Origin: Phycisphaerae bacterium
GTDB taxonomy: Bacteria; Planctomycetota; Phycisphaerae; Phycisphaerales; SM1A02
Assembly: GCA_016873275.1 (NCBI GenBank)
Contig: VGXO01000018.1
Coordinates: forward strand, 1-47,608
Reading direction: 5' to 3'
DNA: 47,608 nucleotides
Part shown: positions 3,531 through 47,608 of the stretch, piece by piece
Numbering within the stretch: the stretch's first letter is position 1
How the letters are laid out: each line of letters begins with the position of its first letter
Program-made: the position numbers and the translations under genes
The notes under the pieces: generated by a model
What the model saw: the letters and a program-made list of their open reading frames with translations, nothing else
What the model was told of the DNA's origin: nothing
Database searches by the model: none

Positions 3531-5552
3531 TCAACCCCTTGGATCCGGTCGCCTCCCCCGCCTCGCCCGCCCCTCGATCCGCGCCGGGACGACCGCCGGC
3601 GGCTCGCCGCCCGCGGCGTGCCGCGCCTGCCCGAGGAGCGACCGCGCCGCCGCCGCGCGGGGCGCGAGGCGAAGGCAGGTCTCGAGCGCCTCGACCGCCC
3701 CCGCCGCATCGCCGCAGGCGAGCCGCGCCCGCCCGAGGACGAGGTGGACCCGCGGATCGCGGAACTCGAGGCTCGCCGCGCGCAGGGCAAGATCCACCGC
3801 CTCCTCCGGATCGCCCCGCAGGAGCCGCACCTCCGCGAGCCGACCGAGCGCCGCATCATCCTGCGGATCGACCACGATCGCCTGTCGCAGCGCCTGCTCG
3901 GCGAGCTCGTGACGCGAGAGGAGGACCGCGACCTCGCCGATCCGCCGATGAAGCCCCGGCGTCCGCGGATGCGCGACCGCGAGCGCCTCGAGCCGCGCGA
4001 GCGCCGCCTCGGCGTCTCCCGCGGAGGTCTCGACGCCCGCGAGCATCATGCCGACGCGGATCGGGTCGTGCCCCCGCGCGGCAAGCGCCACGAGGATCGA
4101 ACGGGCGAGGTCGAGCTCCCCCATCGCCATCGCGCAACTTGCCCGCAGCAGCCTCGCGTTCGGCTCCTCGCGGAGCGATGGATCGAGCTCGTCGAGGATC
4201 GCCGCGGCCCGCGCCGGGCTTCCTGCGTCGGCGATCGAGCACGCGAGGTTGAACCGGTTCGCAGCGGCGGTGTCGCGGGCGTTCGCCTCCGACTCCGCGC
4301 TCGGCGGCGCGATGTAGCCAAGCTCGACGAGCTGCGCGATCGCGGCGCGGCTCTCCGCGGGATCGATCCGCAGGTCCTCCGGATGGCGACCGCACTCGCC
4401 CTCGACCGCCTCCCACGAGTCGATCCGCGGCGGCTCGGCGGCTCCGTCGAGCACCTCCGCGAGGACCCGCCCCGGCATGTCCCGCGCCGCGGGAAGACCA
4501 AGCAGCGTCAGCACGGTCGGCACCACGTCGAGGATGCTCGCGCCGAACGCCCGACCGCCAGCACGGATTCCGGGTCCCACTCCCGCGAACACGCCGTAGG
4601 GGCGATGCCAATCGACGGGACCAGCCTTCCCCTCGCGCGGGTCGGGACGCCGCTCGCCGTGGTGGTAGCCGTGGTCGGAGATGAGGAGCACCGCGGCGTC
4701 CTCGCCCGCGATCCGAAGCAGCGTCTCGAGCATCATGTCGTGGAAGCGGTAGATCCCCGTCATGCAGTGCTCGTACGCCGCGAAGTCCTCCTCCGACACC
4801 TCCGCCATCCGCGGCGGATGGAACTCCATGAACTGATGGCCGAAGCGGTCGATGCCATCGAGATAGACCGCGGCGAAGTCCCAGTCATCGCCCTCAAGGA
4901 GCCTCGTCGCCATCGCGTGGACCGACGCGGTCTGCGCGAGCATCTGCGAGAGCACGCCGAGTCGGTTCGCCGGTCGCGACGCGAGCGCCGCCGCGTTGGG
5001 GACGAAGGGGACCAGCGCGTCGAGTCCGAGCTCGGACGCATGCACCCGGCACTGCGCGATCTCCTCGGCGCGGGAGGCAGGATGGACGACGCCCGAGGCG
5101 AAGGGCGCCCCCGGGCGATCCTGCGCCGGTGCGAACTCGAGCTGGTTCGAGACCATCGTGCCGGCGATCGGCTCCGCGGGATGGGAGGCGTACCAGCCGA
5201 CCACGTGCGAGCGGAGCCCCGACTGGGTCAGGATGTTCCAGATCGCCTTGGTGCGTCGGCTCGTGCTCGCGCTCGGACGGATTCCGGAGCCATCGGGCGA
5301 GGGCTCGGTGAAGCCGAGGATCCCGTGATGCTCCGCTCGCCGCCCGGTGGCGATGGTGTTCCAGAGGATCGGCGAGAGCATCGGCTGCGTCGTCGCCAGG
5401 TTGCCTCGCGCCCCTCGGGCGAGAAGCGACGCGAGGGTCGGCATCAGCCCCTGCGAGACGAGCGGATCGATCATCTGCCAGTCCGCGGCGTCCCAGCCGA
5501 GGAGGAGCACGCGTCGGGGCAGGCGATCGGAACGGACGCGGGCGATCCGCAT
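3531..5552 (-). CDS. Type I phosphodiesterase/nucleotide pyrophosphatase-family protein with TPR repeats
   Basis: About 673 residues. The N-terminal 400 residues form an alkaline-phosphatase-superfamily domain: LLLGWDAADW at the start (first metal-binding Asp), a nucleophile region around TQPMLSPILWNTIATG, DGIDRFGHQFMEFH, and the metal site LLISDHGYHHGE. From about residue 425 to the end the chain is TPR-like helical repeats (for example GRARLACGDAAGAVEALE). This architecture is common in planctomycete and deltaproteobacterial phosphodiesterase-like proteins of unknown substrate. ATG at 5552 was chosen because the domain begins 13 residues later; an in-frame GTG at 5594 is possible but has no ribosome site. 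The last 25 codons share a 43-bp near-identity with the helicase gene's 3' end. Confidence 0.8.
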   Translation of the reverse strand: MRIARVRSDRLPRRVLLLGWDAADWQMIDPLVSQGLMPTLASLLARGARGNLATTQPMLSPILWNTIATGRRAEHHGILGFTEPSPDGSGIRPSASTSRRTKAIWNILTQSGLRSHVVGWYASHPAEPIAGTMVSNQLEFAPAQDRPGAPFASGVVHPASRAEEIAQCRVHASELGLDALVPFVPNAAALASRPANRLGVLSQMLAQTASVHAMATRLLEGDDWDFAAVYLDGIDRFGHQFMEFHPPRMAEVSEEDFAAYEHCMTGIYRFHDMMLETLLRIAGEDAAVLLISDHGYHHGERRPDPREGKAGPVDWHRPYGVFAGVGPGIRAGGRAFGASILDVVPTVLTLLGLPAARDMPGRVLAEVLDGAAEPPRIDSWEAVEGECGRHPEDLRIDPAESRAAIAQLVELGYIAPPSAESEANARDTAAANRFNLACSIADAGSPARAAAILDELDPSLREEPNARLLRASCAMAMGELDLARSILVALAARGHDPIRVGMMLAGVETSAGDAEAALARLEALAVAHPRTPGLHRRIGEVAVLLSRHELAEQALRQAIVVDPQDDAALGRLAEVRLLRGDPEEAVDLALRAASLEFRDPRVHLVLGRARLACGDAAGAVEALETCLRLAPRAAAARSLLGQARHAAGGEPPAVVPARIEGRARRGRRPDPRG
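3564..3606 (-). repeat. 43-bp direct repeat, copy 1 (3' end of the phosphodiesterase gene)
   Basis: Identical to 6525-6567 except for one base (G at 3587, C at 6548). Both copies are in the same orientation and the same reading frame, encoding EPPAVVxARIEGRARRG at the C termini of two unrelated proteins. Confidence 0.85.
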
Positions 5553-44798: not shown

Positions 44799-45220
44799 TC
44801 ACGAACCGGACAGTTCCCGACACAGCGCGTTGAAGTCGTCGAGGTGCCGCTCGACCACGGCCCGCAGGATCGCCCGGTCGAGCATCCGGTACTGGTGAAC
44901 CGCCACGTTCCGGAAGCCCACCATCGAACGCATGCGTGCGGCGGTGGCGTCCGTCAGCAGCCCCGCTCGCTCGAGCAACGTGAACGCCTCGGCGCTGTCG
45001 CCGGGGATTCCGAGCCCGCGAAGCGGGACCACCCGCGAGGCGGCGTCGATCGCCTGCTCGCAGGCCCGCTGAAGATTCAAGACGACCGCATCCTGCACCA
45101 AACCGCATCCTGCACCAATTGGTCCTCAAGTCGATCGAGATCGCCCGCGACGAAGGTCCGGACCTGCTCGATGCAGCGGTGGATGCTGGCGAGCTTCTGC
45201 ATGAAGACCTCATCCGCCAC
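44799..45220 (-). pseudogene. hepT: HepT-type HEPN toxin, frameshifted by a 17-bp tandem duplication
   Basis: The N-terminal part reads VADEVFMQKLASIHRCIEQ and continues to LEDQLVQDAV in one frame, then hits a stop. The C-terminal part VQDAVVLNLQRACEQAIDAAS and onward reads in another frame. The break coincides with two exact copies of a 17-bp sequence (45085-45101 and 45102-45118). Removing one copy gives 405 nt, a clean 134-residue HepT (DUF86) with the RNase motif R-x4-H-x-Y as RNVAVHQY. HepT is a ribonuclease toxin; its partner MntA is intact just upstream. The GTG start at 45220 overlaps the mntA stop by 11 nt. The gene is either freshly inactivated or switchable by slippage. A GTG restart inside the repeat could make the C-terminal piece. 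Confidence 0.85.
45085..45118. repeat. 17-bp perfect tandem duplication inside hepT
   Basis: The unit accgcatcctgcaccaa is present twice, head to tail, with no mismatch. Length 17 is not divisible by 3, so it shifts the hepT frame. Confidence 0.95.
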
Positions 45221-45623
45221 GGAATCGCTCCCGCATGGATTCGGTGCACATCCGCCGGTTGGGCCCGAACGCCGCGTGGTCGGAAAGGGCGTGGGTCGCG
45301 AACAGGTCCGCCTCGAACTGGTTGGGGGCCGCGAGCAGGCGACCCTCGTGCGTCGCCATGACCCGCAGCAGTCCCGGGGCGGCGCGAAGGTCGACGAGGT
45401 CGACGCGAGCTCCCGCAACGCGCTCGAGACGCGTCGCCGCCATCCCCACCGCGATCGGATCGAGCTTGCCGTCGGCGAGCACCGCAAGATCGACATCGCT
45501 CCGCGGCGTCGCCTCGCCCCGGGCATGGCTGCCGTAGAGCCACAGCCCGAAGAACCGGCGATCGGGGAACGACTCCGCGAGCGTCTCCATCACCCGATCT
45601 GCAAGGCGGACGCGATCGATCAT
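45210..45623 (-). CDS. mntA: MntA-type minimal nucleotidyltransferase antitoxin
   Basis: 137 residues. The nucleotidyltransferase signature is LYGSHARGEATPRSDVDLAVL: GS at 31-32 and the two metal Asp at 43 and 45. A third acidic residue is in ARVDLVDLR. MntA proteins neutralise HepT by AMPylating the Tyr of its R-x4-H-x-Y motif, which is retained in the neighbouring toxin. The start is ATG 45623; the stop overlaps the hepT start. The 276 bp upstream to the retroelement template show no gene. Confidence 0.9.
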   Translation of the reverse strand: MIDRVRLADRVMETLAESFPDRRFFGLWLYGSHARGEATPRSDVDLAVLADGKLDPIAVGMAATRLERVAGARVDLVDLRAAPGLLRVMATHEGRLLAAPNQFEADLFATHALSDHAAFGPNRRMCTESMRERFRGG

Positions 45624-45899
45624 GGCGGCAGTGTAGGGATCGATCTCCGATCGTCTTGCCCGTCGATGGGCGCTTCCGTGATCCGCCGCTTGCCGCGGCG
45701 ACTCCGCACGGAAACGCGGCCGAAGCGAAGCATGCCGTCCACGGCACCGCCGACCGGATTCCCGGTCCGCAGTGCCGTCACGACGGATTCGGGCGAAGCA
45801 GCGTCTCGCCATTCACCCTGCCGACGACCGTGGACTCCTTCGCCCGCCCGCGGCGCCGGGCGCCATCGCCCGAGGGCCGTCGGTTCCGATCGAAGGGTG

Positions 45900-46030
45900 C
45901 TCGCGGCACGAAACCCGTTGTTGTTGTTGTCGTTGCCGGGCTCGTTGTTGTTGCGGTTCGACGCACGACAGTTGTTGGAGTTGTTGTTCCAGCTCCCGCC
46001 ACGCAACACCCGGTTCGTGCCGTTGGACAG
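45900..46030 (-). repeat. DGR template repeat (TR)
   Basis: Read on the minus strand, this non-coding region translates as SNGTNRVLRGGSW, a run of Asn-rich segments (NNNSNNCRASNRNNNEPG and NDNNNNGFRAA), the C-terminal core of an FGE-sulfatase/C-type-lectin domain. From the Trp codon to GFRAA there are 14 Asn codons and all are AAC. AAC is the codon favoured in DGR templates because mutating its two adenines yields many residues but never a stop. The left edge (45900-45917) is identical for 18 bp to the window's end (47588-47605), the start of the variable repeat. The right edge is approximate. The TR begins about 20 bp after the reverse transcriptase stop, on the same strand. Confidence 0.92.
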
Positions 46031-46048
46031 GTCGTCGCCGATTGCAGC

Positions 46049-47134
46049 CTACCCGAAGCTGGCGACGATCGCGTCCGCACCCGAGCGACACAGGATCGTC
46101 TCGAACGCCCCCTGTCCTGTCGCGTGCCTCGCGTGACCTCGCCACGCCGCGAGACTCTGCCAAAGCGTGTTCGCCGGCAGGCACTCTCCCCGCACCTGCT
46201 GCGAGAGTCGTCGCAGCCTCCGCGTCGCCCGAAGCACGCTCGGTCGAAGCAGCCGCCGCTCGCCTTGCTTCAGGCGGAACCCCAGAAAGGGAACCTCGGT
46301 CGAGGTCGAGTGGACCCCGCCCTTGCGCGGGTGCAGGCGAAGACGCAGTCCTTCGAGCGTCTCGGCGATCCGGCCCCTGAGGTGCCACAGGCGGTCGGAC
46401 TCGTCCGCGAACACCAGCAGATCATCGCAGTAGCGGAGGTACTCGCCAAAGCCGAGCCGATCCATCACCTCGTGGTCGAGCCGATCGAGCAGGACATTGG
46501 CGAGGAACTGCGAGGTCAAGTTGCCGATCGGAAGACCCCGCCGCCGCTCGAGGGGCGTGAAGAGGTCGTCGCCGGGGAACCACTCCTCGACCGGCTCCTG
46601 GGGATTGCTGCCGTCGATCACGCGATCAAGCACCGCACGCAGGCGCTCGTCGGCGATCACGCGACGCACCTCCGCCTTGAGGACCTCGTGATCGATCGAG
46701 GGGAAGAACTTGGCGACGTCCGCCTTGAGGACGAACCGCCGTCGGACCATGAGGGTGCTCGCCCGCCGCAGCGCCGCATGGCTCCCCTTGCCGACCCGGC
46801 AGGCGTAGGAGTGCGCGACGAAGCGTCGCTCGAAGTGGGGCTCGAGCAGGGAGACGATCGCGTGATGCACCACTCGGTCGCGAAACGGCGCCGCGCTGAT
46901 CAGTCGAGGCTTGGGCTCGACGATGCGGAAGGTGCGGTACGACCCGGGGAACCACCTGCCCGCCGACAGTTCCTCCGCGAGCCTAAGGCACTCCGGCTCG
47001 AGGTCGAGCAGGAACCTCGCGACATCCGGCTTGCGGCGCTTGCCGCGGGCGGCAGTTCGCGCAGCGCGGATCAGGTGCCCGGGCTCGCAGAGGTCGCGGA
47101 AGAGTTCGCCGTTGCGTCCGATGCCTTTCGCCAT
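46049..47134 (-). CDS. Diversity-generating retroelement reverse transcriptase
   Basis: 361 residues. RT motifs are in order: FVLKADVAKFFPSID with catalytic D139; LPIGNLTSQFLANV at 201-214, whose IGxxxSQ form is the DGR-specific version of the QGxxxSP motif; and the active site YCDD at 235-238. A GFR-containing segment (FLGFRLKQGERRLL) and a basic thumb follow. There is no maturase or endonuclease domain, unlike group II intron RTs. With Avd it copies the template RNA into adenine-mutagenised cDNA that replaces the variable repeat. ATG 47134 was chosen as the start of the conserved region; this overlaps avd by 64 nt. The frame is open further upstream but through avd. Confidence 0.95.
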   Translation of the reverse strand: MAKGIGRNGELFRDLCEPGHLIRAARTAARGKRRKPDVARFLLDLEPECLRLAEELSAGRWFPGSYRTFRIVEPKPRLISAAPFRDRVVHHAIVSLLEPHFERRFVAHSYACRVGKGSHAALRRASTLMVRRRFVLKADVAKFFPSIDHEVLKAEVRRVIADERLRAVLDRVIDGSNPQEPVEEWFPGDDLFTPLERRRGLPIGNLTSQFLANVLLDRLDHEVMDRLGFGEYLRYCDDLLVFADESDRLWHLRGRIAETLEGLRLRLHPRKGGVHSTSTEVPFLGFRLKQGERRLLRPSVLRATRRLRRLSQQVRGECLPANTLWQSLAAWRGHARHATGQGAFETILCRSGADAIVASFG

Positions 47135-47484
47135 GCGCCCACCTGCATTCCCAGATCGACCTGCAGCTTCGCCGCGTGAACGAAGCTCTGCTCCGAAAGA
47201 AGCGTCATCTCGCAGGCAAGCCGCAGCAGGTGCCGCGCGACCTGCAGGCGCCGATTCGCGAACTCGAGCGCCTCGCCGCGGCGCGAGCCGCGGCTGTACT
47301 GCGCCGCGACGAGCGACTCGAGCACGTCGAGGTGCGCCGCCTCGATGCGGCTTCCCAACCCGTAGCGCACCTGCCTCGGAAACCGCCCCACCTTGGGAAT
47401 GATCCACTTCAGCAGATCCGCCGCCAGGATCACCGCGGCTGGTTCCGAAGGCGGCGGCGCGGTCACGAGTCGTTCACCCGACAC
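47071..47484 (-). CDS. avd: DGR accessory variability determinant (Avd, four-helix bundle)
   Basis: 137 residues. The family core is LLKWIIPKVGRFPRQVRYGL, then RIEAAHLDVLESLVAAQYSR, RLQVARHLLRLACEMTLLS, and VHAAKLQVDLGMQVGAWRKA, corresponding to the four helices. Avd forms a basic pentameric barrel that binds the RT and the template RNA and is needed for mutagenic retrohoming. GTG start at 47484. The 3' end overlaps the RT start by 64 nt, so the two are co-translated. Without the neighbouring RT it could be read as a plain S23/four-helix protein, but here the role is secure. Confidence 0.92.
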   Translation of the reverse strand: MSGERLVTAPPPSEPAAVILAADLLKWIIPKVGRFPRQVRYGLGSRIEAAHLDVLESLVAAQYSRGSRRGEALEFANRRLQVARHLLRLACEMTLLSEQSFVHAAKLQVDLGMQVGAWRKASDATANSSATSASPGT

Positions 47485-47495
47485 TTGACTTGCAC

Positions 47496-47577
47496 GATGG
47501 AGAAACCAGAAGTGGCAGCAGAGAAGGAAGAAGAAGGAAGAAGAGAAGAGGAAAGATGGAAGATGGGAAAAGGGAAC
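47496..47577. other. Polypurine tract between the DGR target and avd
   Basis: About 80 bp of almost pure A/G on the plus strand (pyrimidine-rich on the coding strand), with far lower GC than the surroundings. It begins directly after the target gene's stop codon. It could form triplex or single-stranded structure near the homing site, or be a simple slippage repeat. Confidence 0.7.
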
Positions 47578-47608
47578 TCAAGGAGTCCTCGCGGCACGAA
47601 ACCCGCCG
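47578..47608 (-). CDS. DGR target protein, last codons (variable repeat 3' end)
   Basis: Only the final nine codons and TGA are in the window: GGFRAARTP then stop. Compared with the template, GGGTTTCGTGCCGCGAG is identical, and the next codon inward is GGC where the template has AAC, i.e. two adenines replaced. The GFRAAR ending is typical of FGE-sulfatase-type DGR targets, whose lectin fold displays the variable residues for ligand binding. The rest of the gene lies beyond 47608. Confidence 0.85.
   Translation of the reverse strand, partial: GGFRAARTP

Follow-up and report, generated by a model that had tools for sequence, protein, structure and literature searches.

Components of a diversity-generating retroelement at a contig end

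The DNA analysed here, hereafter called the window, is the complete contig C18 (47,608 nucleotides) of a 3.23-Mb draft genome in 136 contigs, and it ends at position 47608. Read along the minus strand from that end, it carries the 3′ end of a variable repeat (VR), the stop codon of a target gene, a pyrimidine tract, avd, a reverse transcriptase (RT) gene, a template repeat (TR), and a structured RNA. VR end, avd, RT, and TR all lie on this one strand, as the original prediction had it, and judged by its sequence the locus is very probably a chromosomal diversity-generating retroelement (DGR)—a real representative of an already known class, which confirms the initial observation.

The RT gene (46049–47134, minus strand; start at 47134, stop at 46049) adjoins the TR and encodes 361 amino acids in an open frame that includes the motifs IGNLTSQ and YCDD. 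We assigned it to the DGR type by profile (Pfam RVT_1, E 5.9e-19), by these motifs, and by its best PDB sequence match, 8ub7 (E 3.5e-41), which we take to be the RT complex of the BPP-1 DGR. Avd accessory proteins are common, albeit not universal, in DGRs; here, an Avd-type protein of 137 amino acids is encoded at 47071–47484 (minus strand). Its matches to NCBIfam DivGenRetAVD (E 6.3e-19; 68.2 bits against a curated cut-off of 80) and Pfam bAvd (E 1.3e-9; 38.9 bits against a cut-off of 40) are significant, though under both curated cut-offs.

One template serves several variable repeats

The TR core (45900–46009, minus strand; 110 nt) contains the 14 AAC codons counted previously. At the window edge, the in-cis VR 3′ end (47588–47608, minus strand) is cut by the contig end; the 18 bp it shares with the TR, followed by an adenine-only change from AAC to GGC, had been described correctly. 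Two of three template adenines and none of the 18 other bases are changed there, a comparison that is weak by itself (p 0.014). As the contig stops at 47608, the in-cis target cannot be extended in the present assembly; the alignment of VR and TR that had been proposed as a check was run on two VRs from other contigs, C40 and C99, and here too the mismatches were concentrated at template adenines, as expected for a DGR. Mismatches between the TR and the complete VR on C40 fall on 22 of 32 adenines and on none of 78 other bases (p 8e-16); for the VR on C99, they fall on 20 of 32 adenines and 2 of 78 other bases, with one additional codon (p 9e-12). A VR end does lie at the edge, consistent with the target gene predicted just outside the window; counting those of C40 and C99 on other contigs, this TR supplies no fewer than three VRs. 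Given its two non-adenine changes and extra codon, the C99 VR may be older or derive from an earlier TR; slippage on AAC repeats, which is mentioned in PMC12875486, would fit the extra codon. Contigs C18 and C99 both break at or near VRs.

Target proteins

In both C40 and C99, the VR occupies the 3′ part of a gene with the FGE/C-type-lectin fold. The C40 gene product has 805 amino acids, in which Pfam (threshold E up to 0.1) recognized a C-terminal FGE-sulfatase domain alone (E 5.2e-50); contig C99 opens inside its target gene, whose product matches the same family (E 1.5e-18). Among solved structures, a profile built from eight FGE target domains matched best to TvpA, a variable protein of Treponema denticola (2y3c, E 7.5e-53). 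The lectin-fold target anticipated from the template therefore holds for the targets found, all of which end in an FGE-type domain according to Pfam and the 2y3c match, and which differ in this respect from the BPP-1 target Mtd. An AlphaFold model of the target FGE domain from eight sequences was of low confidence (mean pLDDT 50.1, pTM 0.61). FGE-type targets are common in DGRs (PMC3521204). The C40 target is set apart from TvpA and other FGE-type targets by a long N-terminal part, in which we read a signal-like start as well as lectin-like, EF-hand-like, and dockerin-like stretches, and we infer that the variable proteins are located at the cell surface. Contig C13 ends within the start of a further gene that, together with its upstream sequence, is 96% identical to the C40 start over 589 nt.

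In the related locus L044, a single reading frame (1–2646) encodes two FGE-type domains, both of them ending in a VR-like sequence; the internal VR (VR1) contains an additional codon and continues into coding sequence, with neither stop nor tract. Just downstream of the C99 VR (L006, 698–5677), an ORF of at least 1660 amino acids comprises many repeats of ~90 amino acids, and the contig ends inside it.

Gene order in relation to known elements

Our comparisons draw on portions of PMC8144416, PMC3521204, PMC6642488, PMC12875486, PMC3240598, PMC4679880, PMC10743442, PMC5006420, PMC4372165, and PMC9160355, and statements citing these refer to the portions used. The window element resembles the BPP-1 DGR (mtd-avd-TR-brt) in its RT family, its Avd-like protein, the adenine-specific TR/VR mismatches, and a structured RNA 3′ of the TR (the spacer of BPP-1; PMC12875486). 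However, its TR and spacer are located 3′ of the RT, whereas those of BPP-1 lie between avd and RT. The order target-avd-RT-TR differs from BPP-1, as the original prediction pointed out, but it is not unusual: the TR is downstream of the RT in DiGReF group 2 (PMC3521204), whose VR-RT-TR order makes the layout a known one, and close relatives are arranged alike. Among 16 RT loci from whole genomes, the window included (L024–L039), an AAC-rich TR was found 3′ of the RT in ten and 5′ in two, with no AAC-dense stretch found in the other four; in the named loci L040–L046, whose genomes partly repeat those of the former set, it lies 3′ of the RT in 7/7. Seven distinct relative records have the VR on the opposite side of the RT from the TR, that is, the order VR-RT-TR.

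As for the host, planctomycetes were not found among the DGR hosts in the portions of PMC3521204 used. In their global catalogue, Roux et al. 2021 (PMC8144416) list Planctomycetes within a PVC group and find VRs in C-type-lectin folds, which the present element matches in both its planctomycete host and its lectin-fold VRs. With this element, the DGR catalogue gains a planctomycete that has several hypervariable genes of the FGE type.

Some relatives harbor more than one RT. Genome G207 has two RT loci of unlike layout, with the TR after the RT in one (L029) and before it in the other (L038). On a single chromosome (G1047:C1), we observed five RT matches at separate sites, whose near-equal scores suggest a recently copied RT element. 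On its other side, the TR region of the window is adjoined by a HepT/MntA type VII toxin-antitoxin pair (44799–45623, minus strand; NCBIfam). A perfect 17-bp tandem duplication inside the HepT region (45085–45101 and 45102–45118) appears to shift the frame of the gene: the match enters the 120-position HepT model at position 29, and the part missing before it is readable in another frame.

A covarying RNA structure downstream of the template

Directly 3′ of the TR lies a structured RNA (45729–45901, minus strand), supported by covariation among ten sequences—the window and nine relatives—from which we built a model (R1) that scores the window RNA at 87.7 bits, the window being among the sequences used to build it. 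The consensus comprises 32 pairs, 13 of which are changed on both sides; 93.1% of cells pair, compared with at most 49.3% when the structure is slid by 1–3 columns. In 500 shuffles, 13 such pairs were reached once and the covariation score never, bearing in mind that the structure was derived from the same ten sequences on which it was tested and that some of these are close relatives. The strongest hairpin (45741–45777, minus strand; GAAU loop) corresponds to consensus helix 4, with two-sided changes in 6 of its 15 pairs. Folded as a single sequence, it reached a z of −3.93 in the window (45725–45795) and of −2.8, −2.4, −2.6, and −0.4 in four relatives.

No Rfam family matched 45500–47608 at E up to 1. 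The ten-sequence model matched 19 of 400 genomes of the order, and we inspected 11 of these 19 RNA loci: two possess both RT and TR, one (L065) has a degraded TR and no RT in the 3.1 kb examined, and the rest are a contig edge, truncated remnants, or weak matches. In the RNA-like region after its degraded TR, L065 (G048:C123) contains tandem short G-rich units, and L044 carries an insert similar to them.

The BPP-1 spacer that follows the TR is a folded RNA to which RT-Avd is recruited and which primes the cDNA (PMC12875486). The RNA described here is the probable counterpart of that spacer and, by analogy, would likewise serve in RT-Avd recruitment and priming; TR and spacer would then have stayed together, while their location relative to the RT moved. 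Transferred from BPP-1, the mechanism would run as follows: an RNA spanning the TR and the structured RNA would be bound by RT and Avd, cDNA synthesis would be primed inside the structured RNA, the template would be copied with errors at adenines, and the cDNA would take the place of the 3′ portion of every target gene as far as the IMH. As a result, cells would differ in the binding face of their target proteins.

Loss and decay in related genomes

Of 301 genomes searched within the order, 14 had an RT match. Neither an RT nor an RNA match was found in G028 or G120, the remaining two members of the genus, and the element is therefore dispensable. Both possess ychF, and DNA similarity to the window ends at or ~30 nt past this gene. 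What G028 retains is a relic: a VR followed by an avd fragment of ~65 residues that runs into stops, in a stretch 87% identical over 316 nt to the window edge region. The neighbors of this relic have counterparts on contig C37 of the window genome, and the relic itself had no match in the 12 kb of C37 compared; either a rearrangement or movement of the element may lie behind this difference. Truncated DGR remnants were also detected in other genomes of the family (L065, L068, and L069). These relatives show how such DGRs decay.

Compared with the window TR, the two former VRs of G028 have 3/69 and 7/78 non-adenine differences. FGE-type genes that lack the tract described below (L011, L012, L082, and L084) are far more distant, with 24–35/78, as is L014 with 25/78. 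The gene C45, with 17/78 non-adenine differences and a pyrimidine-rich end, may be an older former target.

With decay so frequent among relatives—in G028, two former VRs and a piece of avd persist, whereas neither RT nor RNA was found—and with two non-adenine changes in C99, the window element might itself have been inactivated recently, its parts still legible, diversification stopped, and its VRs the frozen products of past rounds. We consider this quite improbable: C40 is free of non-adenine changes, unlike the G028 former VRs, the RT frame is open with its YCDD motif, and the RNA structure is kept. Sampled at one genome per species, the sequences point to an element that is likely active at present.

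IMH and a pyrimidine tract at the target gene ends

By sequence, VRs end in an IMH and TRs in a variant of it (IMH*). In the window, the last part of the target gene, past the VR core (47578–47587, minus strand; stop at 47578–47580), reads AGG in the alignment where the TR reads AGC. The distinction is consistent, with AGY at the IMH* side in 10/10 TRs and AGG in 11/11 VRs or former VRs (3/3 of the window genome, 2/2 of G028, and 6/6 of L041–L045).

Directly after the target stop lies the pyrimidine tract (~47507–47577, minus strand), which has a 7-nt step (lag-7 autocorrelation 0.66) and is the sole stretch of the window, on either strand, with a pyrimidine fraction of at least 0.88 over 40 nt. 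A pyrimidine-rich stretch starts at most 3 nt from the stop in 11/11 scored VR or former-VR genes (50-nt maximum 0.76–0.96), a count that leaves out the internal VR1 of L044, where coding sequence follows in place of a stop. For comparison, the same maximum was at most 0.74 at 78 ORF ends in the window, and it was 0.42–0.72 in seven FGE-type genes in which no VR was recognized and from which the tract is absent (L011, L012, L018, the second one of L036, L082, L084, and L087). Across 116 genes in 15 sequences, six reach 0.78, and five of these are VR or former-VR genes, counting C45. An end score of 0.80 was obtained on C40 for an aminotransferase-like gene without a VR, behind which lies a repeat-like, pyrimidine-rich stretch (L005, ~3770–4000); tracts are thus not strictly confined to DGR targets.

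Just downstream of its VR, BPP-1 has a GAAA-loop hairpin, which is needed for efficient homing (PMC3240598). The window's family has the tract instead of such a hairpin: five of six VRs or former VRs (those of the window genome, of G028, and C45) lack any stem of at least 6 bp with a loop of 3–8 nt within 100 nt, and C40 has a 6-bp stem at offset 74 only. In the relative L041, a long hairpin is discernible by eye ~50 nt past the stop. Hairpins downstream of the VR were reported in 'a subset of DGRs' (PMC3521204) and are therefore no defining feature, while PMC3240598, citing unpublished data, states that one is predicted in most chromosomal DGRs. Since a near hairpin is missing around the element's own VRs, the tract may stand in for it in this family. 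Together with the AGY/AGG difference between IMH* and IMH, a phased tract on the VR side only may make the transfer one-way.

A phased 7–8-nt array after many variable repeats of planctomycetes, phages, and some other phyla

We extended the comparison to loci from a class search (matches in 31 of 397 genomes) and a phylum search (47 of 392), keeping 30 loci from each, to the best 80 of 298 viral relatives, and to the earlier loci. A script paired TRs and VRs, requiring an alignment of at least 50 nt with at least seven mismatches, at least 75% of them at adenine, so that decayed VRs were left out of the counts; likewise excluded were VRs followed by less than 70 nt of sequence and those whose last 60 nt were repeated. 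This yielded 39 planctomycete, 8 other-phyla, and 62 viral VRs (59 distinct viral tails).

In the 60 nt after the VR, the higher of the lag-7 and lag-8 autocorrelations had medians of 0.442 (planctomycete), 0.400 (other phyla), and 0.365 (viral), compared with 0.321, 0.288, and 0.288 in dinucleotide-shuffled sequence (p 4e-14, 3e-5, and 3e-19, respectively; these values treat VRs as independent, which is true only in part, and the viral set alone was clustered, into 56 clusters). Upstream of the VR, the medians were 0.264, 0.238, and 0.269. Values of at least 0.40 occurred after 25/39, 4/8, and 20/62 VRs; among the other gene ends of the respective sets, the counts were 11/127, 6/119, and 21/433. 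General pyrimidine richness, considered as an alternative description, was discarded: a fraction of at least 0.78 was seen in 12/39 planctomycete, 0/8 other-phyla, and 0/62 viral VRs. It is the 7–8-nt step that extends more widely.

In viral tails, 132 of 166 neighboring CTGs are 7 or 8 nt apart (17 of 173 at other gene ends). At least two such CTG pairs follow 42/62 viral VRs (37 of the 56 VR clusters) on the sense strand, with 0/62 on the other strand and 0/62 after TRs; the figures for other phyla are 5/8, 0/8, and 0/8. In planctomycetes, two or more pairs were found for CTG after 3/39 VRs and for CT[GT] after 18/39, with 0/39 after TRs.

YTK—picked from three trinucleotide patterns after the IMG/VR tails had been inspected—formed chains of at least four units after 42/62 viral, 22/39 planctomycete, and 5/8 other-phyla VRs, the chains of the remaining 20, 17, and 3 VRs being shorter. 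At gene ends running into largely non-ORF sequence, such chains occurred in 1/180 (viral), 2/62 (planctomycete), and 1/33 (other phyla). In 14 VRs of named phages (limit of five mismatches, plus-strand pairs)—the closest to a held-out set, yet with tails inspected before the pattern was settled—six had a chain of at least four, compared with 0/99 gene ends; the eight with fewer units included BPP-1, which has no YTK chain after its VR. Within the window's family, the C99 VR has a chain of two (lag-7 0.38), the former VR G028_C154 a chain of three, and C45 a chain of two.

The family's tract, pyrimidine-rich and placed after the stop, is reminiscent of the C-rich, G-poor rut sites (PMC9160355), and the phased sequence could belong to a terminator of the target mRNA, Rho-dependent or otherwise, and have no part in homing. 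That reading is unlikely, given the rarity of long YTK chains after other genes of the same loci, a rut descriptor of YC dimers 9 to 13 bases apart rather than 7–8 nt (PMC9160355), and viral units that contain CTG or CTGA and hence are not G-poor.

The unit varies by lineage (TTYCC, CTTTGCC, YCTGANN, and CTTGATC types) and the step is kept. This would also be compatible with a scar of homing, or of slippage past the integration end, that has no function of its own, the more so as heptamer arrays without a DGR link have been found elsewhere (PMC4679880). A scar nevertheless seems rather doubtful, for the array is confined to the sense strand and is missing after TRs, and its chains most often comprise 4–6 units and start at a median of 3–8 nt past the VR.

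The array is a statistical regularity with a putative function. A reading we regard as evenly poised is that ~4–6 YTK-type pyrimidine-led units with a 7–8-nt step form a sense-strand array that is widespread in DGR target sites, placed after the VR and ahead of any hairpin; this array would mark the VR as homing target and, with the IMH, set direction, and the tract would be its form in the window's family, where it would replace the hairpin. The portions of the DGR literature searched name IMH and hairpin only, and we found no description there of an array or tract after the VR, which may already be described in other literature. Should the array prove functional in target sites, it would join IMH and hairpin as an additional cis element, could assist in locating targets distant from the RT (here on other contigs), and would bear on cDNA entry into the VR, a step called incompletely understood (PMC12875486). 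What merits follow-up is the structured RNA 3′ of the TR, together with the phased array downstream of the VRs.

Avd is a pentamer, and as a speculation, step and unit number of the array would suit a ring-shaped binding protein such as this. Pairing of the array with the DGR RNA was considered and rejected: a complementary chain of at least four units within 250 nt after the TR was present in only 1/37 planctomycete, 0/7 other-phyla, and 4/62 viral cases.

Hairpins were scored in the same sets. Those with a GRNA loop and a stem of at least 5 bp follow 16/62 viral, 3/8 other-phyla, and 1/39 planctomycete VRs, compared with 1/62, 0/8, and 1/39 after TRs, and stems of at least 7 bp with loops of 3–6 nt follow 15/62, 2/8, and 11/39 VRs, respectively. 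In several phages, the array comes first and the hairpin after it.
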